The notes under the pieces: model-generated
The model's input: the letters and a program-made list of their open reading frames with translations, nothing else
What the model was told of the DNA's origin: nothing
Database searches by the model: none
NCBI GenBank assembly: GCA_025153755.1
Contig: JAOALD010000002.1
Location: 124,001 to 188,000 of the forward strand
DNA length: 64,000 nucleotides
Source: SAR92 clade bacterium H921
GTDB lineage: Bacteria > Pseudomonadota > Gammaproteobacteria > Pseudomonadales > Porticoccaceae
Direction of reading: 5' to 3'
Made by a program: the position numbers and the translations under genes
Shown: in pieces, positions 8,125 to 36,264 of the stretch
How positions within the stretch are numbered: position 1 is the first letter of the stretch
Layout: every line of letters starts with the position of its first letter

Positions 8125-10428
8125 ATGAGCATATTTAAACGAGGAAAATTATATCAAGGCGTTGCTTTAAGCTCGCTGCTGATTGCAGGTTTAGGCGCGC
8201 CAACTGTGGCTGCACAAAATGATACTGAACTTGATGAGATCATTGTTACCGCCACCAAGAGAGACGAGCGCCTGCGTGATGTACCGATGGCCATATCAGT
8301 GCTCGGAGAGGATGCCTTAGAAATTGCAGGGATCACTGATTCTCAAGGAATCGCGGATACCATTCCCGGTATGACCTTCAGCACGGCAGGGAACAATATT
8401 AACCCATCGTTCATAGTGCGGGGCATCGGAACCTTGTTGAATCAGGACGATTTGACTAGTCCAGTGGCCGTATACCTAGACGAAATGCCAATGTCGGCCG
8501 CAAAGAGCACGGTCAGAATGGATTTCGGTTTATTTGACGCCGCACGGGTCGAGGTGCTGAAGGGTCCTCAGGGCACATTATTTGGGGCCGGTACCCTTGC
8601 CGGTGCGGTAAGAATCATTTCAAATAAGCCTGACCCAAGTGGATTGTCCTATAAAATTTCCACAGATATAGGTTCGACTAGCGGCGAATTACGTCAGCGC
8701 TACAACGCGATGGTGAATATTCCCATAAGCGAAAATGCTGCTGTGCGTCTGGTTGCTTTCGCAGCTGAAGATGACGGTTGGGTCAATAACCTTAGTGATG
8801 GCACCAACCCAACCAATGGTATGACAAATACGGGATTGCGGGCGCTACTTGGCTGGCAAGTGAATGATCGGTTTAATGCGAATTTCTCATACATGTTTCA
8901 AGACACCGAAATAGACGATGGATCGACAATCAATCCGGCTTTGGGTGAAAACTCCAGAACTGGGTTCGCCAAAGACAGCTCCGATGTTGAGATGTCTATG
9001 TTGAATATGACGCTTGAGTACGATCTTGGTTTTGCCACTCTCACCTCTTCGACTAATTATTCTGAGAATGATGCGGTCATGAAAGCAGATTTGAGCCCAA
9101 TAATTGGCGGCGCGGCCCCGTGGCTACTTCACCGGGAGCCCAGTGATGAGGCTTTTGCTCAGGAGATCCGTCTGGTGTCCAGTTCAGATTCCAGACTGGA
9201 CTGGGTTCTAGGTGGGTTCTTGCTTGACCGACAAACTGAGGTGGCGCAGGTGTTTTATCTCCCGCAGTCATGGGTAGATGCCAGAGGAACCGGCCCAATT
9301 GGGGGCGCTATTTCTACGATGACGGTTGATAACGCTTGGATTTATGGCGGCGACGTCACATATGAGTACAAGGAGACCGCATTCTTTGGGGAGCTCGGGT
9401 ACCAGCTGACAGATACCATTAAAGCCACGGTGGGCTTCAGAACTGGTGACATGGAAAACAGTAATTCGCGTCCAGGCGGCGGTGCGTCCAGTTTTGGCCC
9501 TGTTGGCTCGGTTATTTTTGGGGGGGCAACTTCCTTTGAACCTGTGCCTTACACCGCGGCGTCATACGAGCCGGGTAAAACCAGCAGTAACAACGTGAAG
9601 TTATCTTTGGCGTGGCAGTTTAACGATAACGTGAATTTTTATGCAACAGCCTCGGAGGGCTTCAGAACTAACGAAATCAATCGCGCCGGCTTTTTACCTG
9701 GACTTGACGGTCAGCTGGGGTCTAGTCGCTTAAACCCCGACTCAACCGTTGTGATTCAACAGGTTTCCAGTCCAGATAGTCTTTGGAACTACGAGGTTGG
9801 CATGAAGGCGCAATGGGATTCAGTCACAGCAAACCTTACATTCTACAACATGGTCTGGGAGGATATTCAATTGAGTGCCATGCGCCCAGGAGAACCCGAT
9901 CAATTCATTACCAATGCGGGTGAGGCCAAATCCGATGGGATAGAACTCGAGATATTAGCCGATATCGGGGGCAACTTGGAGCTTGGGGTCAATGTGGCGG
10001 TGCAGGACGCTAGGATTACTCAATTAAGTGAACAAGAGGCTATTTTGACAGGCGCAGCGATGGGCTCTTCTCTTGTCTCGCCAGATCTGCAGCTCTCTGG
10101 ACATTTTAAGTACACTGTGCCCCTAGATAGTGGCAATGAAGCGTTTGCTCGTATGGGCTTCAGTTACACTGATGAGTTACCCAATGGGTTTCCAAATAAT
10201 GTCGGCACCCCGGGCATATTGAATCCGTTTTATGCAGAAACCGATGCCTGGACTAAGGTGGATTTCATCTTAGGTTGGGCGTCTGATAAGTGGTCGGTGG
10301 CGCTTTACGGAGAGAACATATTGGATAACGATGACTCCACCTTTATCATGCAGCAGAATTTTTTCGCCAACAAGCACATGACGCCGCGGCCGCGGACTTT
10401 TGGTATTAGGGTGTCGATGAATCCCTGA
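8125..10428 (+). CDS. TonB-dependent outer-membrane receptor
   Basis: A 767-residue TBDR, an energised outer-membrane transporter. Seen: a signal peptide ending near VAAQN, a TonB-box-like DEIIVTATKR, a plug domain with the family pattern FIVRGIGT and RVEVLKGPQGTLFGAGTLAGAVRI, then a long beta-barrel with regular aromatic strands. The protein ends RVSMNP rather than with the usual terminal aromatic, which is slightly unusual. GAGGG precedes the ATG. The substrate is unknown; the shared operator (8050) with the MFS and TBDR at 18-20 kb suggests a common nutrient system. Confidence 0.93.
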   Translation: MSIFKRGKLYQGVALSSLLIAGLGAPTVAAQNDTELDEIIVTATKRDERLRDVPMAISVLGEDALEIAGITDSQGIADTIPGMTFSTAGNNINPSFIVRGIGTLLNQDDLTSPVAVYLDEMPMSAAKSTVRMDFGLFDAARVEVLKGPQGTLFGAGTLAGAVRIISNKPDPSGLSYKISTDIGSTSGELRQRYNAMVNIPISENAAVRLVAFAAEDDGWVNNLSDGTNPTNGMTNTGLRALLGWQVNDRFNANFSYMFQDTEIDDGSTINPALGENSRTGFAKDSSDVEMSMLNMTLEYDLGFATLTSSTNYSENDAVMKADLSPIIGGAAPWLLHREPSDEAFAQEIRLVSSSDSRLDWVLGGFLLDRQTEVAQVFYLPQSWVDARGTGPIGGAISTMTVDNAWIYGGDVTYEYKETAFFGELGYQLTDTIKATVGFRTGDMENSNSRPGGGASSFGPVGSVIFGGATSFEPVPYTAASYEPGKTSSNNVKLSLAWQFNDNVNFYATASEGFRTNEINRAGFLPGLDGQLGSSRLNPDSTVVIQQVSSPDSLWNYEVGMKAQWDSVTANLTFYNMVWEDIQLSAMRPGEPDQFITNAGEAKSDGIELEILADIGGNLELGVNVAVQDARITQLSEQEAILTGAAMGSSLVSPDLQLSGHFKYTVPLDSGNEAFARMGFSYTDELPNGFPNNVGTPGILNPFYAETDAWTKVDFILGWASDKWSVALYGENILDNDDSTFIMQQNFFANKHMTPRPRTFGIRVSMNP

Positions 10429-23185: not shown

Positions 23186-23209
23186 TGGGAATTTTCTAAA
23201 GGAGTTCAC

Positions 23210-23746
23210 ATGATTAAATTTGTTGATCCCAGAGGGGAAGTTGCAACGCCGGAGCAATCGTATGATCTGTCCCGGGATTTGCGCCTCAATGACGGCGAAG
23301 GCATCACCGTGGCATTACTTGCCAATGGTTTTCCTGATTCCGAGTTGTTTACTAAAAAGGTGGGTCTGGCGCTGGAGAAGCGACTACCCAAGGTTCAAAC
23401 GCTTTTTTGGAATAAACACAATGCGGGGACTGCCGCCAATGATGAGATGCTCGATGAAATTTTTCCCCAGTGTGATGTTGCGGTGGCGGCATACGGACAC
23501 TGAGGCAGTTGTACTACCGGCACCGTGCGTGACGGATACAACATTGCTCAGCGAGGATTTCCGGTGGTATCACTGATTACTGAAGATTTTTGGGATCAGG
23601 GACAATTTGTCGCCAAATCACTGGGCATGCCAAATGTTCCCAGAGTTAAGTTACCACATCCTGTAGCTGGTTTGGGAGAGGCAAAAATTGAGGTTATTGC
23701 AGCCAGCATTATTGAGGAAATATTGAATAGTTTTGCCAATGAGTGA
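23210..23746 (+). CDS. UGSC-family selenoprotein (in-frame TGA read as Sec98)
   Basis: Two open stretches, 23210-23500 and 23504-23746, lie in the same frame and are split only by TGA at 23501-23503. Read as selenocysteine, the product is 178 residues with the motif GHUGSCTTGTVRDG, U at position 98, a UxxC redox motif. Family knowledge: UGSC-containing seleno-oxidoreductases are known largely from marine metagenomes, with Cys homologues elsewhere. Seen: an AAAGGAG ribosome site before ATG 23210, Rossmann-like strands (ITVALLANG, CDVAVAAYG, FPVVSLITED), and a SECIS-like hairpin just after the TGA. selA, selB and tRNA-Sec lie 9-13 kb downstream. The end overlaps the next gene, so they are co-translated. 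Precise reaction unknown; thiol redox chemistry is inferred. Confidence 0.9.
23501..23535 (+). promoter_or_regulatory. Sec TGA codon with bacterial SECIS-like hairpin
   Basis: The recoded TGA (23501-23503) is followed by a stem-loop at 23517-23535: CCGGCAC against GTGACGG with one G-A mismatch and a five-base loop CGTGC. The loop carries GT about 22 bases after the TGA. Bacterial SECIS elements place a GU-containing apical loop at roughly this distance inside the coding region, where SelB binds it. Confidence 0.7.
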
Positions 23747-24821
23747 TTTTTTAGAAGCTGAAAACGAAGAGATGGCGCTGGAGCAACTCCATGATATGGG
23801 TTGCACAGATGGCCTGCCTGTCGTAATTCCCACGCAGGAGCGAGTTGTTCGCTGCATTCTCGCCACTGGGTTAGATGGCGATATGGTGCTCGGTGAATTA
23901 GGTCCGGGTATGGGCATTGCCACGGTAGAGAAAGTGGCCACGGCAGCCGTGATGGCAGGCTGTAAGTCTGACTATATGCCGCTGGTTGTCGCTGCTGTAA
24001 AAGCGGCGGCCAAGCCGGAGTTTGATCTCTCGGAATTACAGGCAACTACTCACTGCACGGCGCCGCTAATTATTATTAATGGTCCGGCTCGTGAAACCTG
24101 TGGGCCGGTCGCATCGGGCTACGGCGCGCTGGGCCCCGGGCACCGAGCGAATGCCAGTATTGGTCGCGCGCTGAGGCTCTGTCTGATTAATATCGGCGGC
24201 GGTAAGCCAGGAATTTCCGATATGGCAATCCATGGCCATCCAGGAAAATTCACCTATTGTCTGGCAGAGGCAGAAGAGGAATCACCCTTTCCGCCGATGC
24301 ATACCAGTCTGGGTTTTGATGAAACTGATAGTGTTGTCACTCTACTAGGTTGTGAAGCGCCGCACTCCTGTCTTTATAGCGACAATGCAGATGACCCTGA
24401 GGATGCTGAAAAGCTCCTGAAAATTCTGTCCGTTGGCCTGACCAATATCGCGACCAATAATGCTGTTTTTGCCTCGGGAATGGCGCTAGTTTGTCTAGGC
24501 CCCAAGCACGCAAATGTGTTGGCCCGCTCTGGTCATAGCAGAGAGTCGATACAGCAGAGGCTCTGGGAACTGACGCATCTTTTAAAAGCCGATCATATCC
24601 GTTATGGCGGTGAATTCGGTAAAGCTTTTAGAGATAACCCCGAGGGCACTTATCCTGCGTTTAAAGTCCCACAACATATTCTGGTGATGGTCGCCGGCGG
24701 TGTCGGATTGTATTCGATGGTGATGCCGAACTGGGGTGGGGCAGGTCATCAAAATTCCGCAGTCAGTGTGCAGGTTGAAAGTGATTTCTTTTGCGCTATC
24801 CCAGGATTGGGAGGCGCTTAG
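23739..24821 (+). CDS. Conserved protein of unknown function, partner of the UGSC selenoprotein
   Basis: A 360-residue soluble protein that I cannot assign to an enzyme family. It starts with the recognisable pattern MGCTDGLPVVIPTQERV and has conserved-looking Cys and His (HCTAPLIIINGPARETCGP, GAGHQNSAVSV near the end) and a glycine-rich GPGHRANASIGRALRLCLINIGGGKPG. ATG 23739 overlaps the selenoprotein stop by eight bases; a TTG six bases earlier is less likely. The tight overlap argues that the two proteins act in one complex or reaction. No transmembrane segment or signal peptide. A metal- or thiol-dependent enzyme working with the selenoprotein is a guess only. Confidence 0.8.
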   Translation: MSDFLEAENEEMALEQLHDMGCTDGLPVVIPTQERVVRCILATGLDGDMVLGELGPGMGIATVEKVATAAVMAGCKSDYMPLVVAAVKAAAKPEFDLSELQATTHCTAPLIIINGPARETCGPVASGYGALGPGHRANASIGRALRLCLINIGGGKPGISDMAIHGHPGKFTYCLAEAEEESPFPPMHTSLGFDETDSVVTLLGCEAPHSCLYSDNADDPEDAEKLLKILSVGLTNIATNNAVFASGMALVCLGPKHANVLARSGHSRESIQQRLWELTHLLKADHIRYGGEFGKAFRDNPEGTYPAFKVPQHILVMVAGGVGLYSMVMPNWGGAGHQNSAVSVQVESDFFCAIPGLGGA

Positions 24822-24889
24822 TGTCCCAAATAATATTAAATTTGGTTTTTAGAGTTTCAATCTAAACCGCAGTCATTAAGGAAATTTTG

Positions 24890-25999
24890 ATGGATCCAAT
24901 TACATTGTATGGAGGCGCATTTTCTCTCTACACCGGGCGAGCACGCAGCTATTTAATAAAATCTAAAATTGATTATAGAGAGGAGCCGCACTCCTCAGCG
25001 TACTTTTACGACGTAGTGCTACCAAAGGCTGGAGGTCGACGTGGGATACCCACTATCGAATTCCCCAATGGTGATGTTATCCGTGATGGCGTTGCGATAA
25101 TAGATTATTACGAAAGTACCAATGGTGGAAAATTTTCCCCTGAAACCCCGAAGCAACGAATTTTAAGTCTGCTATTTGATGTGATCGGTGCCGAGGGCAT
25201 GTTGCGGCCTTGCATGCATTATCGATTTAATCAGGGTGAAGAGGAGGGCGAGTTTCTCTCCTTTCATTTTTCTACCGTCTATCCCGAAAAAAATGGTGCT
25301 AAAGACAGAATTGCCTTTATTAAAAGTACCGTTTTGCCAGCTTGGGGTGTAAGGCCCAATACCAAAGATCTTATTGAAACCATGCATTTGAAGACATTAA
25401 AAAAATTGAATGCACACTTTTCCATCTATCCCTATCTGTTCGGAAATAAACCCAGTATCGGTGATTTTGGCATGATAGCTCCTCTATACGGGCATCTTGG
25501 CAGAGACCCTGTGCCGCTTTCATTAATGCAAATAAATGCGCCCAGATTGTTCCGGTGGGTTGAGAGGATGAATAGATCAGAGCCAGATATTGGTGAGTTT
25601 GCGGATAAAAGCACCAACTATCTCGCTAATGATGAGATTCCTGAAACGCTCATTGATGTGCTTAAGCACTTTGCGACAGATTTTATTCCAGAAAGTGTGG
25701 CGGCTTATAACTGCGTAAGTCACTGGCTAGAGGCAAATAAAGATTTATCTGCCGGCACTGTGGCTGAGCGAGAGGTCGGGAGCTGCGCCTTTGAGATTGA
25801 TGGTATCGAGATCAATGCGGTTGCTCAGCCATTTCGGTTCTATTTACTGCATCGCCTACAAAAGGAATTTGATAGCTTGAACGACGCAGACAGAGAAGAT
25901 GTGCGCCAGGTGCTGAAGGATTGTGATATGGACGAGGTGCTCAACTTAAGGCTATCTCGTGAAATGGGCAGAGCGAATAATCTGGAAGTCTGGCTTTAA
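24890..25999 (+). CDS. Glutathione S-transferase-like protein
   Basis: A 369-residue protein with a thioredoxin-fold GST N-terminal domain (LYGGAFSLYTGRARSYLIKSKIDYREEP, then GRRGIPTIEFPNGDVIRDGVAIIDYYE, carrying the cis-Pro and the S/D pair that binds glutathione), a helical C-terminal domain, and an added tail of about 110 residues. ATG 24890 has AAGGA at good spacing; the TTG one codon earlier is not needed. Its stop overlaps the SDR start as TAATG. A glutathione-handling protein beside a selenothiol protein suggests shared thiol chemistry, by inference. Confidence 0.8.
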   Translation: MDPITLYGGAFSLYTGRARSYLIKSKIDYREEPHSSAYFYDVVLPKAGGRRGIPTIEFPNGDVIRDGVAIIDYYESTNGGKFSPETPKQRILSLLFDVIGAEGMLRPCMHYRFNQGEEEGEFLSFHFSTVYPEKNGAKDRIAFIKSTVLPAWGVRPNTKDLIETMHLKTLKKLNAHFSIYPYLFGNKPSIGDFGMIAPLYGHLGRDPVPLSLMQINAPRLFRWVERMNRSEPDIGEFADKSTNYLANDEIPETLIDVLKHFATDFIPESVAAYNCVSHWLEANKDLSAGTVAEREVGSCAFEIDGIEINAVAQPFRFYLLHRLQKEFDSLNDADREDVRQVLKDCDMDEVLNLRLSREMGRANNLEVWL

Positions 26000-29336: not shown

Positions 29337-32300
29337 ATGCAGTCTCAAGGAATACTTATTGCCAACCGAGGCGAGATATCAATCCGAATTGCGCGCGCCG
29401 CAGCGGATATGGGTATCAGGTCGGTAGCCGTTTACTCGAGCGATGACCAAACCAGCCTGCACACCAAGATTGCCAATGAAGCCCTGTTAATCCCCGGCAC
29501 AGGTGCCAAAGCCTACCTTGATATTGAGCAGATTATACTGGCAGCTCAAGCAGCCAACTGTGATGCTATTCATCCGGGATACGGATTTTTATCAGAGCGC
29601 GCAGACCTGGCTGCAAGCTGTGCGGCGGCAGGAATTACCTTTATAGGGCCGAGTGAAGCGCACCTAAAACTATTCGGTGACAAAGGTGCCGCAAGGCGGG
29701 CAGCGATTGACGCCGGTGTGCCGGTGTTAGCGGGAACGGATCATGCTGTGACCCTAGAGCAGCTGACTGAATTTTTCGATACTGTCAATGGGTCCATTAT
29801 TATCAAAGCCGTTGCCGGTGGCGGTGGCCGCGGCACTCGCATCGTGCACAAAAAAGAAGATCTCGACGAGGCCTTTGCGCGATGCCAGTCTGAAGCGATG
29901 GCAGCCTTTGGCCTCGGCGATGTCTATGTCGAAGAATTTTTGGCGCGAGCCAGACATATTGAAGTACAAATACTGGGTGATTCGATGGGTAATATCGTTC
30001 ACTTTGGAGAGCGGGAGTGCTCTGTTCAGCGGCGCAACCAAAAAGTCGTCGAAATTGCGCCGGCGCCGAATTTATCCGCCAGTCTGCGCGACAAGATTAT
30101 TAGTGCCGCGGTGAGTTTTGCTCAGCAGCAACAGTATACAAGCCTCGGCACCTTTGAGTTTTTAGTCGATGACAGCTGCTCAAATACTGGCGATTCCGGC
30201 GACACAATCGCCGATAATCAGTTTGTCTTTATCGAGGTCAATGCTCGGCTACAGGTCGAGCATACAGTGACCGAGGAAGTTACAGGTTTCGATCTGGTAC
30301 GCGGTCAGATACAGATTGCTCTCGGATCTTCGCTTGCCGACCTTGGTCTCGATGCCAAGGCATCGCCGCGCATATCCGGGTTTGCCATACAGGCCAGGGT
30401 CAATTTAGAAACCATCAATAGCGATGGCACTGTTATGCCAGGCTCTGGCACCTTAGCCAGATATGAACCGCCCAATGGTCCCGGTGTGCGCACTGATGGC
30501 TTTGGCTATGTCGGTTACAACACCAGCACCGCATTTGATTCGCTGCTGGCCAAAGTGATTGTCCACGAACGCTCAGCGCAGTTTAAAGATGCCGCCAGAA
30601 AAACGATCAGAGCACTCTCTGAATTCCATCTGGAGGGGGTCAGAAATAATATTTCCTTTGTCAAAAATATTATCTCCCACCGCGACTTTATCGAAGGGGC
30701 TATCCACACGCGCTGGGTTGAGGAGCAGATCGATCAGTTAACCACCGACTGGCAGGGTCCAGACCTCTTTGTGGCCTCAGCGCCCACTGATAAGGCCAAT
30801 GATGGTTTTGCCGGTGCGAGGGTCGACACCAATGACCCTCTGGCCCTGTTTACCCATCAAAACGCATCGCTACAGGCGACAGCAAATGAGCCTCAGAGCA
30901 TCGACACGCCCGATGGACTGCAGGCGGTCTGTTCACCCATTCAGGGCACTATTGTTGCCATTGAGGCTGGGCTCGGTGAGCAGGTCAGAGCCGGTGACGC
31001 AGTGGTAATAGTCGAAGCGATGAAAATGGAGCATGTTATTGTCGCTGAGTGCGATGCGGTTGTTCGCCAAGTGACGATGCAAGTAGGTCATGTTGTTCGG
31101 GAAGGGCACCCAATTCTATTCCTTGAAGAAGCGGAAGTAGCAGAGCGAGACGAAATTTATAAAGAGCAGTTAGATACGAATTATATTCGCCCCGACTTAC
31201 AGGAAAACTTTGATCGCCATGCCTATACCCTGGACGAACAGAGACCCGAGGCAGTGGCAAAAAGAAGGGTGCGCGGTGGTCGTATGGCTCGGGAAAATAT
31301 TGCCGAATTAGTCGATCAGGGCTCCTTTAAAGAGTACTGGCCGCTGGTGGTTGCCCGCCAGCATCAGCGCCATGATATGGAGACATTACGCAAGCGCACT
31401 CCGGCGGACGGACTGATCGGTGGAACCGCTACTATTAATGCAGACCTGTTCGGCGATGAGGCCTCCTCGGCCATGGTGGTGCATTACGATTACACAGTGC
31501 TGGCAGGGACTCAGGGCGGCAGAAACCACTACAAACAAGATCGACTGTTTGAACTCGCTCTAAGATTTCGCATGCCTTTGGTACTGTTTAGCGAGGGCGG
31601 CGGCGGACGTCCAGGAGATGATGATCTGGGTCCCGGTGTCTCCTTTGATACCCATACATTTACGCAGTTTGCCAAGCTTTCGGGTGCGGTTCCGATGATT
31701 GGTGTTAATCATGGGCGTTGCTTTGCCGGCAATACCGTATTGCTGGCCTGTTGCGATGTCATTATAGCGACCAAAGATTCCACCATAGGTATGGGTGGTC
31801 CAGCAATGATCGAGGGCGGTGGTCTGGGTGTCTACACGCCCGAAGAGGTGGGCCCTATGTCATTCCAGGTGCCCAATGGAGTGGTTGATATTCTGGTTTA
31901 TGACGAAGCTGAAGCGGTATCGGTGGCGAAAAAATACCTGTCCTACTTTCAGGGAACTATTGATCGTTGGGAAGAACCAGATCAGCTGAGTTTGCGCCAC
32001 GTTATCCCTGAAAATCGACTGCGGCTCTACGACATGCGGGAGGTTATCGAGACGCTGGCAGATCTCGATTCGGTGTTAGAAGTCAGAGAAAAATTTGGTA
32101 TTGGAGTTATCACTGCATTTATCCGCATCGAGGGTAAACCCATGGGAGTGATCGCCAATAATCCCCACCATCTCTCCGGCGCTATTGATTCAGATGGTGC
32201 CGACAAAGGTGCCAGATTCCTGAAATTATGTGATGCTTTTGATATTCCCATTCTCAGCCTGATGGACTGTCCTGGGCTAATGGTTGGGCCGCAGGTTGAG

Positions 32301-32741
32301 GCCACTGCACTTGTTCGTCATTCCGCGAGAATGTTTAATACGGGGGCAAATATAACTACGCCAATGTTTGGTGTGGTTGTGCGCAAAGCTTATGGTCTGG
32401 GCATTCAGGCTATGTGTGGTGGCAGTTCATCCCTTGGCCTGCTGACCGTTGCATGGCCCACGGCTGAATTTGCGGCAATGAATATTGAGGGCAGCGTCAA
32501 GCTGGGCTTTCGCAATGAGTTGATGGCCATCGACGATCCCGAGGAGAGAAATAGAGTATTTAATGGCAAAGTAGAAGAGCAGTACGAGCGGGCCAAGGCA
32601 GTGAATGCCGCAGTGGGTGGTGGGCTTGACGATGTAATTGATCCAGCGGAGACAAGATCATGGATTGCCGAGGGTTTAAAAAGACTGCCTCCGGTACCAT
32701 TGCGAACCGATAAAAAACACGCTTTTATAGATACCTGGTAG
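29337..32741 (+). CDS. Single-chain biotin-dependent acyl-CoA carboxylase (BC-BCCP-CT)
   Basis: 1134 residues that join all parts of an acyl-CoA carboxylase. Residues 1-450 form biotin carboxylase (ANRGEISIRIARAA; ATP-grasp loop AVAGGGGRGTRIV; FIEVNARLQVEHTVTEE). Residues about 525-600 form the biotinyl domain with EAMKMEH, Lys563 being the biotin site. Residues about 620-1134 form the carboxyltransferase (VRGGRMARENIAELVDQG; GVNHGRCFAGN; QVEATALVRHSARMF). Most bacteria split these into two or more subunits. It carboxylates an acyl-CoA using bicarbonate and ATP; which acyl-CoA is unknown. Its place behind a CoA-transferase suggests a catabolic acyl-CoA and not fatty acid synthesis. No clear ribosome site apart from a GGGG stretch. 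Confidence 0.9.
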   Translation: MQSQGILIANRGEISIRIARAAADMGIRSVAVYSSDDQTSLHTKIANEALLIPGTGAKAYLDIEQIILAAQAANCDAIHPGYGFLSERADLAASCAAAGITFIGPSEAHLKLFGDKGAARRAAIDAGVPVLAGTDHAVTLEQLTEFFDTVNGSIIIKAVAGGGGRGTRIVHKKEDLDEAFARCQSEAMAAFGLGDVYVEEFLARARHIEVQILGDSMGNIVHFGERECSVQRRNQKVVEIAPAPNLSASLRDKIISAAVSFAQQQQYTSLGTFEFLVDDSCSNTGDSGDTIADNQFVFIEVNARLQVEHTVTEEVTGFDLVRGQIQIALGSSLADLGLDAKASPRISGFAIQARVNLETINSDGTVMPGSGTLARYEPPNGPGVRTDGFGYVGYNTSTAFDSLLAKVIVHERSAQFKDAARKTIRALSEFHLEGVRNNISFVKNIISHRDFIEGAIHTRWVEEQIDQLTTDWQGPDLFVASAPTDKANDGFAGARVDTNDPLALFTHQNASLQATANEPQSIDTPDGLQAVCSPIQGTIVAIEAGLGEQVRAGDAVVIVEAMKMEHVIVAECDAVVRQVTMQVGHVVREGHPILFLEEAEVAERDEIYKEQLDTNYIRPDLQENFDRHAYTLDEQRPEAVAKRRVRGGRMARENIAELVDQGSFKEYWPLVVARQHQRHDMETLRKRTPADGLIGGTATINADLFGDEASSAMVVHYDYTVLAGTQGGRNHYKQDRLFELALRFRMPLVLFSEGGGGRPGDDDLGPGVSFDTHTFTQFAKLSGAVPMIGVNHGRCFAGNTVLLACCDVIIATKDSTIGMGGPAMIEGGGLGVYTPEEVGPMSFQVPNGVVDILVYDEAEAVSVAKKYLSYFQGTIDRWEEPDQLSLRHVIPENRLRLYDMREVIETLADLDSVLEVREKFGIGVITAFIRIEGKPMGVIANNPHHLSGAIDSDGADKGARFLKLCDAFDIPILSLMDCPGLMVGPQVEATALVRHSARMFNTGANITTPMFGVVVRKAYGLGIQAMCGGSSSLGLLTVAWPTAEFAAMNIEGSVKLGFRNELMAIDDPEERNRVFNGKVEEQYERAKAVNAAVGGGLDDVIDPAETRSWIAEGLKRLPPVPLRTDKKHAFIDTW

Positions 32742-32821: not shown

Positions 32822-34240
32822 ATGGATATACCGAAAAGCCACTCCATAGATAAGACGGATATTCGACGCAGGTTGCCCTCTGTCGATACTGTCTTACAGG
32901 CATCTGACTCTCTTTTACAGCATTGGGGTAACAGCAGAGTCGGTATGGCTATTCGTGCCGAACTTGCGGGGCGTCGGGAGTATCTTGCCGCAGAGATTGA
33001 TTTAGATGTCAGTGTTGAATCTATTATTGAGTCTGTGCGAAGCAAGCTAGCGGCAGCGGACGATTCGAGTCTAAAGCCAGTGATCAATCTTACTGGTACT
33101 GTCTTGCACACCAATCTAGGCCGAGCGGTACTTCCTCAGCAGGCAATCGACGCTATGGCCCAGGTGGCAGCGATGCCTACTAACCTGGAGTATGACCTCG
33201 CCAGCGGCGGCCGTGGTGAGCGCGATGACCATGTTGAAGCATTGATCTGTGAGTTGATTGGCACCGAGGCTGCCACTGTAGTCAACAATAATGCCGCCGC
33301 ACTTTTACTGGTATTAAATACCCTCGCCGAGAATGCCGAAATACCCGTATCCCGCGGTGAGTTGGTTGAGATCGGCGGCTCATTTCGAGTCCCGGATATT
33401 ATGCAGCGATCAGGCTGCACTCTAGTGGAAGTGGGCACCACTAATCGAACCCATCTCAAAGACTATCAACAGGCTATAAATCCTCGTACAGCACTGTTGA
33501 TGAAGGTGCACACTAGCAACTATGCGGTTGAGGGATTTACCGCAGCAGTTGATGAGCCTGAATTGGCTGCGCTGGCTCAAGAGCAGGGTTTGCCCTTTGT
33601 GGTCGATCTGGGCAGTGGAAATTTAATTGATTTTACGGCCTATGGGCTCCCCCATGAACCTGTGACGGGCAGTGCCATTGAGCATGGCGCCGATGTGGTT
33701 ACCTTTAGTGGTGACAAGTTATTGGGTGGCCCCCAATGTGGCATTATCGCAGGGCGTAAGGATCTTATAGATCGAATTCGCAGCAACCCCCTTAAACGCG
33801 CGCTGCGCCTGGACAAAATTACCCTGGCCGCGCTTTCTGAGGTGCTTAAGCTTTACCGTCACCCAGAGCAGTTAGCTGAAGAGTTACCAACCCTGCGCTA
33901 CCTGACCCGAGATGTCAGTGATATTGAAAAACAGGCGCTTCTGCTTGCGCCCGCGCTAGCAGAAAACTTGCCCAGTGCCTATACAGTGATAACCCAGGCT
34001 TGCCTGAGCCAGATCGGCAGTGGCGCTCTGCCTGTGCAGAATATTCCCAGTTTTGGCCTAGCCATCACCGCCAACAGCGATGCGCAATTACGAGCTCTGT
34101 CCGATGCCTTTCGACAGTTACCCTGTCCAGTGGTGGGTCGTATTAATGATAAGAAACTACTGCTCGATTTACGTTGCCTTGATGGTGAGTCTCAGTTTGT
34201 TGAACAGAGCGGTAAATTAAAAGAGCTGCTCGCGTGCTAG
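32822..34240 (+). CDS. selA: L-seryl-tRNA(Sec) selenium transferase
   Basis: A 472-residue PLP enzyme that turns Ser-tRNA(Sec) into selenocysteinyl-tRNA(Sec) with selenophosphate. Seen: an N-terminal LPSVDTVLQ region, the family stretch INLTGTVLHTNLGRAVLP, YDLASGGRGERDDHVE and the PLP-lysine motif FSGDKLLGGPQCG with Lys299. Length agrees with bacterial SelA. AAGGCGG lies directly before the ATG. Its end overlaps selB by seven bases, so translation is coupled. Together with selB and tRNA-Sec downstream it supplies the machinery for the selenoprotein at 23210. Confidence 0.97.
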   Translation: MDIPKSHSIDKTDIRRRLPSVDTVLQASDSLLQHWGNSRVGMAIRAELAGRREYLAAEIDLDVSVESIIESVRSKLAAADDSSLKPVINLTGTVLHTNLGRAVLPQQAIDAMAQVAAMPTNLEYDLASGGRGERDDHVEALICELIGTEAATVVNNNAAALLLVLNTLAENAEIPVSRGELVEIGGSFRVPDIMQRSGCTLVEVGTTNRTHLKDYQQAINPRTALLMKVHTSNYAVEGFTAAVDEPELAALAQEQGLPFVVDLGSGNLIDFTAYGLPHEPVTGSAIEHGADVVTFSGDKLLGGPQCGIIAGRKDLIDRIRSNPLKRALRLDKITLAALSEVLKLYRHPEQLAEELPTLRYLTRDVSDIEKQALLLAPALAENLPSAYTVITQACLSQIGSGALPVQNIPSFGLAITANSDAQLRALSDAFRQLPCPVVGRINDKKLLLDLRCLDGESQFVEQSGKLKELLAC

Positions 34241-36165
34241 TGGCGACAGCTGGTCATGTTGATCATGGCAAGACCTCTGTTGTAAAACATCTCTCCGGTG
34301 TTGATACCGATAGCCTCGAGGAAGAAAGGCGACGGGGGCTGACGATAAATCTGGGTTATGCCTATCTGCATGCAGACGCTGATACCAGAGTTGGCCTTAT
34401 TGATGTCCCAGGCCACAGCCGCTTTATCAATACCATGATTGCCGGGGTAAGCGGCATTGATCTGGCTCTGATAGTGGTGGCCGCCGATGAGGGTCCAATG
34501 CCACAAACCATGGAGCATCTTGAGGTACTTCGGCTATTGGGCATTGGCCAGTATGCAATTGTTATTACTCACATCGACAGGGTGGAACGTCCTCGGGTAG
34601 TGCAGGTCACTGAAGCAATGCAGTCTGCAATGGGCATGCAATGGCCAGTTTTTCAGGTGAATAATATAGATGGCTCTGGAGTCGATGATTTAAAAAGCTA
34701 TCTTTTACGGATGGCAGTAGAGCAGAGTGCTAAATCTCGGGAGGGATATTTCCGCTTATCTATTGACCGTAGTTTTTTACTCAATGGCATTGGGCTTGTG
34801 GCCACTGGTACGGCTATGTCAGGTTCAGTCTCAGAGGGTGATAAATTGTTTTTGCTGCCTGGATATCGAGAAGTCAGGGTGCGAGCGGTACATTCTCAGA
34901 ATCAAAAATCTGCAATAGGTCAGGCGGGTCAACGCTGTGCGCTGCAGCTGGCAGGCATTGACAGGAGTCAGATAAATCGGGGTGATTGGCTCCACGCCAG
35001 CGCCCAAACTCAGGTCTCCAATCGACTCGACGTCAGGCTCGAAATGTCTGATCGGCTGTCCTTCAAGGTTAGACATCTTTGTCCAGTAAAGCTCTATATT
35101 GGCGCCAAGTTGCAACCCGCCAAGCTGTATCTGTTGGAGCGAAAAACCGATGGCAATCAGCTGGAAGCAGGCAGTCGGGTGCTAGCGCAGCTTATTATTG
35201 ATAGCCCAATTAGCTGCTGTCGAGGCGATAGATTTATCCTGCGCGATAGCAGTGAATCGACCACATTGGGAGGTGGCATAGTGCTGGACCCCCATGCTGG
35301 CTACAATCCAAAGTTAAGCGACAAGGGCAAGAATTATTTGCTGGCCATGGAATTGCCAACCCCGCAGGAAACTCTACAAAAGCTAATTATCGACCAGCAG
35401 CAAACGGTGAATCTCAGCCAGTTCAAACAGGCTTGTAATTTGCAGGACGCAGATTTGGCCGCCGTGCTGCAACAAGCTGATCTGCCGGATAAAACCAAAG
35501 CATTTTCTCTTCGGGGGCAGGAGTATTTGGTCGCTAAGCAATACTGGGAAAACGCTGAAAAAGTTATGGTCGACGCTGTCAAGGGCTGGCATAAAGAAAA
35601 TCCCGCTGCCGAGGGTATTCAGTCCGGCGCGCTGTTAGCGGGCTTAATACCAGTTACAGATAAGAGCCTGTACTGGCGCGTACTCGATAACCTGGTGGAA
35701 CGAGCTGTGTTAAGTCGGTCCAATGGCTGTATCTGTCTAGAGGGCTTTAGATCTCAGCGCTCTGCTGAGGAGAGGCACCACTGGCAACTTATCGAACAGG
35801 CCCTGAGTCATTACAGTAATCAAATACCTACTCTGGCGGATTTGCAAAACGATCTGCAACTCGATGATAAAACTGTCCAGAGGGTTTTGCAGCGAGCAGT
35901 TGTCGAGGGTCGAGTTTTCAGGTTAGGTGCAAAGCGTTTTGTGCTATTCCAACAGCTCAGCCGATTTGCCCAGGGAGTGAACCAATTTGCCATTGCCAAG
36001 CCTAGATTTTCTGTTGTAGATATTAAAAACCATCTGCAACTGGGGCGTAATTCCTCTGTTGAACTGCTGGAGTACTTTGATCTTATAGGCTTCACCAGAC
36101 GCCATGGGCAGAGTCGAGCAGTGCTAGACGCAACAATACCCGACAGGATTTTCACAATGAAATAA
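34234..36165 (+). CDS. selB: Selenocysteine-specific elongation factor
   Basis: A 643-residue GTPase that carries Sec-tRNA(Sec) to the ribosome and binds SECIS hairpins through its C-terminal winged helices. Seen: P-loop TAGHVDHGKTS, switch region RGLTINLGYAYL, DVPGHSRFI (G3) and ITHIDR in the NKxD position, where SelB proteins are variable. The EF-Tu-like domains 2/3 follow, then about 270 residues of winged-helix repeats. The start is GTG at 34234 inside the selA end. tRNA-Sec follows within ten bases, which is an unusually compact triad. Confidence 0.97.
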   Translation: MLVATAGHVDHGKTSVVKHLSGVDTDSLEEERRRGLTINLGYAYLHADADTRVGLIDVPGHSRFINTMIAGVSGIDLALIVVAADEGPMPQTMEHLEVLRLLGIGQYAIVITHIDRVERPRVVQVTEAMQSAMGMQWPVFQVNNIDGSGVDDLKSYLLRMAVEQSAKSREGYFRLSIDRSFLLNGIGLVATGTAMSGSVSEGDKLFLLPGYREVRVRAVHSQNQKSAIGQAGQRCALQLAGIDRSQINRGDWLHASAQTQVSNRLDVRLEMSDRLSFKVRHLCPVKLYIGAKLQPAKLYLLERKTDGNQLEAGSRVLAQLIIDSPISCCRGDRFILRDSSESTTLGGGIVLDPHAGYNPKLSDKGKNYLLAMELPTPQETLQKLIIDQQQTVNLSQFKQACNLQDADLAAVLQQADLPDKTKAFSLRGQEYLVAKQYWENAEKVMVDAVKGWHKENPAAEGIQSGALLAGLIPVTDKSLYWRVLDNLVERAVLSRSNGCICLEGFRSQRSAEERHHWQLIEQALSHYSNQIPTLADLQNDLQLDDKTVQRVLQRAVVEGRVFRLGAKRFVLFQQLSRFAQGVNQFAIAKPRFSVVDIKNHLQLGRNSSVELLEYFDLIGFTRRHGQSRAVLDATIPDRIFTMK

Positions 36166-36170
36166 GACTT

Positions 36171-36264
36171 GGAAGAGCGACGCCCCCGGTGGGGTGCCTG
36201 GTCTTCAAAACCAGTGAGGTGCCATTGAGGTGCCTGGTGGGTTCGACTCCTACCTCTTCCGCCA
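36171..36264 (+). tRNA. selC: tRNA-Sec (anticodon TCA)
   Basis: A 94-base tRNA with acceptor GGAAGAG pairing CTCTTCC, encoded GCCA end, long six-pair D stem (CGCCCC/GGGGTG), anticodon stem CTGGT/ACCAG around loop CTTCAAA with TCA at 36205-36207, large extra arm (GGTGCC-type helix) and T loop TTCGACT. The length, extended arms and UCA anticodon define selenocysteine tRNA. It begins five bases after the selB stop. Confidence 0.97.

Follow-up and report, generated by a model that had tools for sequence, protein, structure and literature searches.

UGSC proteins rank with the most common selenoproteins of the sea, accounting for 8.2% of 4324 selenoprotein genes in one survey. Proteins in which a UGSC domain is joined to another conserved domain (UGSC/Unknown_1) were already reported in the accessible text of the 2008 GOS survey. 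The available portions of PMC2398784, PMC13188914, PMC7539508, PMC9312934, and PMC9402790 give neither a tested function for UGSC nor thioredoxin as its reductant, which agrees with the original statement that UGSC-type proteins have no settled function. Glycine reductase, to which UGSC is likened here, is a multi-protein reductase that contains a selenoprotein and is linked with thioredoxin, as far as the available part of its description goes. The GrdB/PrdB proteins (PF07355) have the UxxC active-site motif in common with UGSC, whereas UGSC has no PF07355 match and its partner protein matches no Pfam family. GrdB is classically linked with anaerobes; the hosts of UGSC include marine bacteria, Roseovarius, Arthrobacter, and haloarchaea.

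The window analyzed here, a stretch of 64,000 nucleotides from a 2.57-Mb genome assembly, encoded a protein that matched the UGSC family (PF24696, NF041046; GOS 2008) over nearly its whole length and carried the UGSC motif. It differs in that it scored below the NCBIfam naming cut-off and was encoded with its partner in two overlapping genes where other members are fused; the two domains joined in the GOS fusions, the second of which is probably the partner, are separate genes in the window. The family itself is already known; what is new is that the pairing is a rule, that thioredoxin is linked to it, and that the fold prediction and a 16-copy radiation are added. Taken together, the genes suggest a two-part, thioredoxin-recycled selenoenzyme that would function in a CoA-linked catabolic operon, a reading to which we assign a probability of about 0.6. 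The pairing, the likely thioredoxin reductant, and the predicted non-thioredoxin fold open the function of UGSC to a short list of assays, in which the partner is a second gene that needs to be co-expressed with UGSC.

Structure and family membership of the UGSC gene

23200..23204, + strand: AGGAG ribosome-binding site, 5 bases 5' of the ATG, read from the sequence
23210..23746, + strand: UGSC-family selenoprotein gene, 178 amino acids, terminal TGA at 23744-23746, PF24696 match
23501..23503, + strand: codon TGA of selenocysteine 98, forming UxxC with Cys101; Sec or Cys at this column in 28/28 homologues

The two same-frame stretches that had been proposed to be joined by a TGA into the motif HUGSC were recovered at 23210-23500 and 23504-23743, and the joined translation around codon 98 reads ...AAYGHUGSCTTGTVRDG.... 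A ribosome-binding site had been claimed before the first stretch only; AGGAG was found there, none was seen by eye close 5' of the GTG at 23525, and motifs resembling AGGAG were seen by eye 5' of several of the 13 window-type UGSC genes that are compared below. The joined protein matched PF24696 at residues 5-174 with 145.8 bits (cut-off, 25) and is therefore a member of this Pfam family. Because its separate halves also matched, with 51.4 and 70.4 bits, the TGA interrupts a single domain of which the halves are the two parts. On the NCBI equivalog model NF041046, the protein scored 103.1 bits, which is below the cut-off of 125. Its active-site motif, U98-G-S-C101, is that of the UGSC type. 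The alignment of homologues at residue 98, which had been proposed as a check, comprised 25 sequences with Sec and 3 with Cys, so that no homologue lacked both at this column, and Cys101 was invariant. The identification as a UGSC selenoprotein is thus supported by the PF24696 score, a local SECIS, and Sec machinery encoded downstream.

Close relatives of the window UGSC gene were found in a SAR92-clade record (96%) and a Porticoccaceae record (94%), and the protein of SAR92 clade bacterium H231 is 96% identical to that of the window. A sample of 112 genomes of the same family contained 19 genomes with UGSC, of which 17 carried an in-frame TGA (TGA-type) and two were of the Cys type, and 93 genomes without UGSC. 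The count of UGSC genomes was reduced from 20 to 19 by the removal of G034, which had a sub-threshold PF24696 match only. Sub-threshold matches in frames of 496-555 amino acids (L021, L023-L026) were also discarded; the four that were read (L021, L023, L025, and L026) resembled FAD-dependent oxidoreductases by eye. A second UGSC-like match in one genome (L022, G109:C14) contained a TGA and a TAG and is perhaps a decaying copy. The expectation that automatic annotation would split such a gene was borne out in a relative, in which a plasmid gene of Paracoccus ferrooxidans was deposited as two "hypothetical proteins." In this plasmid (CP038202.1, L144), the UGSC gene with its in-frame TGA occupies positions 8381-8950, the partner adjoins it, and selA and selB are situated within 8 kb.

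Selenocysteine machinery

32822..34240, + strand: selA, TIGR00474, 579.6 bits (cut-off, 267.9)
34234..36165, + strand: selB, TIGR00475, 399.1 bits (cut-off, 242.25)
36170..36263, + strand: tRNA-Sec (UCA), ARAGORN; RF01852, 69.3 bits (47)

As originally noted, these three genes were located downstream of UGSC on the same strand, at a distance of 9.3-12.7 kb. A selD gene (437.4 bits) was present elsewhere in the same genome, which therefore contains the complete gene set expected for a bacterial selenoprotein. Among the 112 same-family genomes, SelB exceeded its cut-off in 13 of the 17 TGA-type genomes, in neither of the two Cys-type genomes, and in four of the 93 without UGSC. The four remaining TGA-type genomes were G001 (64% complete), G056 (75%), G103 (78%), and G100 (92%), and G056 yielded an interrupted SelB match of 238.2 bits. 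This selB match (L122:12571-14518) contained four TGA and one TAG codons and was situated near a TGA-type UGSC gene, reflecting either an assembly error or a recent loss.

The SECIS hairpin

23505..23547, + strand: predicted bacterial SECIS hairpin (RNA) of -12.8 kcal/mol; the G of its loop CGUGC follows the UGA by 22 bases
23517..23535, + strand: 19-base SECIS core, invariant in 13 genes; no other invariant run in the gene exceeds 5 bases

The proposed stem-loop with GU in its loop about 22 bases after the TGA was present, with the loop at 23524-23528. The SECIS was assessed by a home-made hairpin scan and a codon comparison. Folding of the window hairpin as a single sequence was not beyond chance, as 43 of 200 shuffles folded as well, and the corresponding values were 16 of 200 for a longer stretch and 4 of 30 for codon shuffles; weight was therefore placed on the codon comparison and on paired base changes. 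Codons 104-108 (GGC ACC GTG CGT GAC), all five of which are degenerate, were identical in 13/13 window-type genes, the proteins of which are approximately 96% to 47% identical to the window UGSC and include several close kin. Outside codons 98-112, none of the 38 comparable codons (those with a conserved degenerate residue) was invariant in these 13 genes. Furthermore, the 19-base invariant run coincided exactly with the apical stem-loop. These results indicate that the predicted SECIS is conserved as an RNA element in the window-type genes.

The hairpin scan detected a bSECIS-like hairpin in 53 of 54 Sec genes, but codon shuffles often gave one too. L044 was the gene that yielded no such hairpin in the scan, L029 and L073 folded worse than the means of their own shuffles, and the hairpins picked for L003 and L029 differed from that of the window. 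Paired base changes were evaluated in two divergent groups of 8 and 12 of the 54 genes, which were chosen by hairpin type, with near-copies such as L040, L064, and L065 omitted. Since these sequences had also served to draw the structure, the counts lean towards it. In the group of eight, 93.8% of cells were paired, with changes on both sides of the stem, and the covariation score was equalled in one of 500 shuffles; the number of pairs with both sides changed was reached by 24 of 500. In the group of 12, 88.1% of cells were paired and no shuffle out of 500 equalled the covariation score; the outermost pair was missing in 8 of the 12 sequences, and 140 of 500 shuffles had as many further pair types. 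The hairpin in the mRNA after UGA 98, together with the SelB and tRNA-Sec encoded downstream, would thus almost certainly insert selenocysteine at this codon of a working gene.

The partner gene

23739..24821, + strand: partner gene; its likely ATG overlaps the UGSC stop (ATGAGTGA); without a match in Pfam or NCBIfam

The pairing of the UGSC gene with a partner gene is a rule across bacteria and archaea. Of 56 stretches, 55 had the partner adjacent to UGSC (at most 240 bases away on the same strand) or fused to it in one protein, and the lone exception had a contig edge 7 bases 3' of UGSC. These stretches were taken from genomes, from SAR92, Porticoccaceae, Halieaceae, and Luminiphilus records, and from plasmids of Alpha-, Beta-, and Gammaproteobacteria, Actinomycetota, and haloarchaea; some of them share a genome (e.g., L027 and L105; several of G443) and are not independent. 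The gene caller skipped the partners in L091, L100, L103, and L104 in the gene-order listing, and the domain survey of the 56 stretches includes them. An ATG overlapped the UGSC stop in 13/13 window-type genes by eye, with the contig of L008 ending just after it. UGSC and the partner were both confined to the same six of 369 class genomes, and the 17 partner genomes of the same-family sample were all among the 19 UGSC genomes (0/93 others). Tblastn matched the partner in 24 plasmid records and UGSC in only 11, and in each of the 12 records examined of the 24, a domain profile located UGSC next to the partner.

Searches of Pfam, NCBIfam, and the PDB gave no match for the partner product, and its alignment contained no invariant Cys. 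Fused UGSC proteins, which are about 480-650 amino acids long, have a C-terminal half that is homologous to the partner. The partner is probably the "Unknown_1" of the 2008 GOS survey, judging from the part of that survey available. The fusions suggest that UGSC and the partner form a physical complex. In L148 and L153 (haloarchaea) and in L104, a single UGSC gene was accompanied by two partner-like genes, as if for a three-part complex.

Predicted fold and relation to GrdB/PrdB

The structural model of UGSC (mean pLDDT, 93.9) was an alternating strand-helix domain with a flavodoxin/Rossmann-like order, in which Sec98 follows the third strand and Cys101 is part of the initial turn of the helix after it. 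The structural matches listed for this model were largely flavodoxin-, CheY-, and Rossmann-like, and no thioredoxin entry was among the 50 matches listed in each of two structure searches. The fold is predicted to be flavodoxin-like, and not thioredoxin-like as the literature supposed. A model of a fused UGSC-partner protein (mean pLDDT, 85.1; pTM, 0.88) gave fold-search matches that were dominated by the UGSC domain. PDB sequence searches with UGSC and with the partner returned no convincing match, and the search with three PF07355-type proteins returned none.

A distant kinship of UGSC with GrdB/PrdB is likely but unproven. An hhalign comparison with PF07355-type proteins, represented by 16 of 17 loci (L125, in a wrong frame, was omitted), gave a P of 1.5e-4 and a probability of 51% with the UxxC motifs in register, and seven unrelated controls gave P values of 0.014-0.48. 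An earlier profile comparison with only three PF07355-type proteins was weak (E, 0.03; probability, 1.7%). The UGSC profile reached PF07355-type proteins only at an E of 0.061, intermixed with unrelated proteins, in a table headed by N-terminal fragments of UGSC that the decoys contained. The HMM support is therefore one-way, from the reverse search with a PF07355-type profile, and even there the window UGSC protein was absent among the matches listed. None of the 28 UGSC members matched PF07355 at an E of 5 or better, which places them outside that Pfam family. Several same-family genomes encoded PF07355 (GrdB/PrdB-like) proteins whose UxxC motif includes an in-frame TGA (L054-L057 and L059-L063), and none was found in the genome of the window. 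These selenoproteins (e.g., L054 and L056) have the same TGA-x-x-Cys motif, which aligns with the UGSC motif, but at about 390 amino acids they are longer than UGSC.

Link to thioredoxin

Four partner proteins (L101, L112, L116, and L118) were fused to an N-terminal CxxC domain, the profile of which matched PDB thioredoxins with a best E of 1.3e-5. Pfam assigned no thioredoxin-like family to the four whole proteins at 1e-3, and their N-termini alone gave a weak match in two of four (best, 0.00059). On an Arthrobacter plasmid, the genes were arranged in the order trxB, trxA, partner, UGSC; on a Roseovarius plasmid, trxB directly followed the UGSC-partner pair; and on a Variovorax plasmid, trxB was situated upstream of the pair with two genes between. 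All four of these trx genes exceeded the NCBI cut-offs. Such genes were present in 3 of 10 annotated plasmid neighbourhoods of UGSC, with none listed in the other seven. These arrangements point to thioredoxin as the likely reductant that recharges UGSC. No trx gene was found among the scanned genes of the window row, and thioredoxin there would therefore be the general one of the cell.

Gene neighbourhood

24887..25999, + strand: GST-like protein, GST_N_3 25.8 bits, GST_C 24.4 bits
25999..26778, + strand: short-chain dehydrogenase (SDR), adh_short 205.8 bits
26817..29237, + strand: family III CoA-transferase, 806 amino acids, CoA_transf_3 452.1 bits in three stretches
29337..32741, + strand: protein of the single-chain biotin-dependent acyl-CoA carboxylase type, 1134 amino acids, with biotin carboxylase, biotinyl, and carboxyltransferase domains

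The gene order in the window was TonB receptor, alpha/beta-hydrolase, UGSC, partner, GST-like protein, SDR, family III CoA-transferase, biotin-dependent carboxylase, selA, selB, and tRNA-Sec. L105, L028, L106, L109, L110, and L031 repeat this order up to selA or as far as the stretch extends, and L107 repeats part of it. A shorter row consisting of UGSC, partner, SDR, CoA-transferase, and carboxylase was identified in L029 and L030. Of the 10 annotated plasmid neighbourhoods, 5 also had CoA-transferases near UGSC and its partner. The 806-amino-acid CoA-transferase, with its three domain-matching stretches, corresponded to two ORFs in some relatives (L109 and L031).

A second locus type in the genus of the window (L115 and L122) had the order partner, UGSC, KAS III-like gene, selA, selB. 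The KAS III-like gene directly followed UGSC (L115:9557-10588; L122:10080-11108), and its best NCBIfam match, at 73.3 bits, was below the cut-off of that model. The Cys of the encoded protein is in what we take to be the usual GCxG context. GrdC of glycine reductase has a likeness to KAS III. The neighbour families of the 16-copy genome described below and of the other loci revealed no common pathway in scans of 80 of 96 and 74 of 87 neighbours, respectively.

Proposed function and alternative explanations

UGSC and the protein encoded by the gene that overlaps its stop probably function only as a pair. An attack of the selenolate on a substrate that is bound together with the partner would yield an Se-S bond for thioredoxin to reduce; we consider this scheme somewhat more probable than its opposite. 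The chemistry might be a reductive bond cleavage, as in glycine or D-proline reductase, within a pathway ending in CoA esters, but we offer this analogy tentatively, with the odds against it.

These proposals presuppose that UGA 98 is decoded. That the TGA is a real stop, in a pseudogene, through an assembly error, or with a truncated product of 97 amino acids, would be compatible with a single sequence whose hairpin alone does not exceed chance. However, the in-frame TGA recurs in 17 of the 19 UGSC genomes of the family sample, 19 invariant bases underlie the hairpin, the second half is conserved in the same frame, and an ATG overlaps the final stop in 13/13 genes, which together make this explanation extremely improbable. 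The UxxC motif could also belong to a stand-alone thiol/selenol oxidoreductase or peroxidase that has a thioredoxin-like fold and acts in redox defence, and the 2008 GOS survey, in its available part, puts the UGSC family with Trx-like proteins. We regard this role as unlikely, since the high-confidence model has alternating strands and helices and its listed matches are largely to flavodoxin-, CheY-, and Rossmann-like structures, and since a constant partner and a row of catabolic genes better suit a metabolic enzyme.

It is rather unlikely, too, that UGSC and the partner form a redox-linked pair that performs no GrdB/PrdB-type cleavage, serving for example as a thiolate-dependent isomerase, as a dehydrogenase partner, or as an acyl carrier to the nearby CoA enzymes. 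The KAS III-like gene after UGSC in L115 and L122 and the CoA-transferases and acyl-CoA enzymes that recur near UGSC would fit such a pair, but the linkage with Trx/TrxB points to a supply of electrons.

Genomes with multiple UGSC genes

UGSC and its partner, together with thioredoxin, might constitute a widespread and unrecognised class of two-part Sec/Cys reductases, distantly derived from a GrdB/PrdB domain and distributed in marine and soil bacteria and haloarchaea. This class would have radiated in two related gammaproteobacterial genera, with up to 16 TGA-bearing genes per genome, several of them with apparent signal peptides and each perhaps with its own substrate; we propose this as a speculative extension that has less than an even chance of being correct. 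The largest bacterial selenoproteomes named in the available part of a 2026 review comprise 57 and 63 genes. The 3.5-Mb gammaproteobacterial genome G443 contained 16 UGSC-family genes with one in-frame TGA each (L034, L038-L045, and L079-L084). Two relatives of G443, one of the same genus, harbored seven and eight UGSC genes, and the other 50 of 53 genomes of the order had none. The 15 genes that were read of the 16 in G443 were fused to the partner domain, and several of the N-termini were signal-peptide-like by eye.
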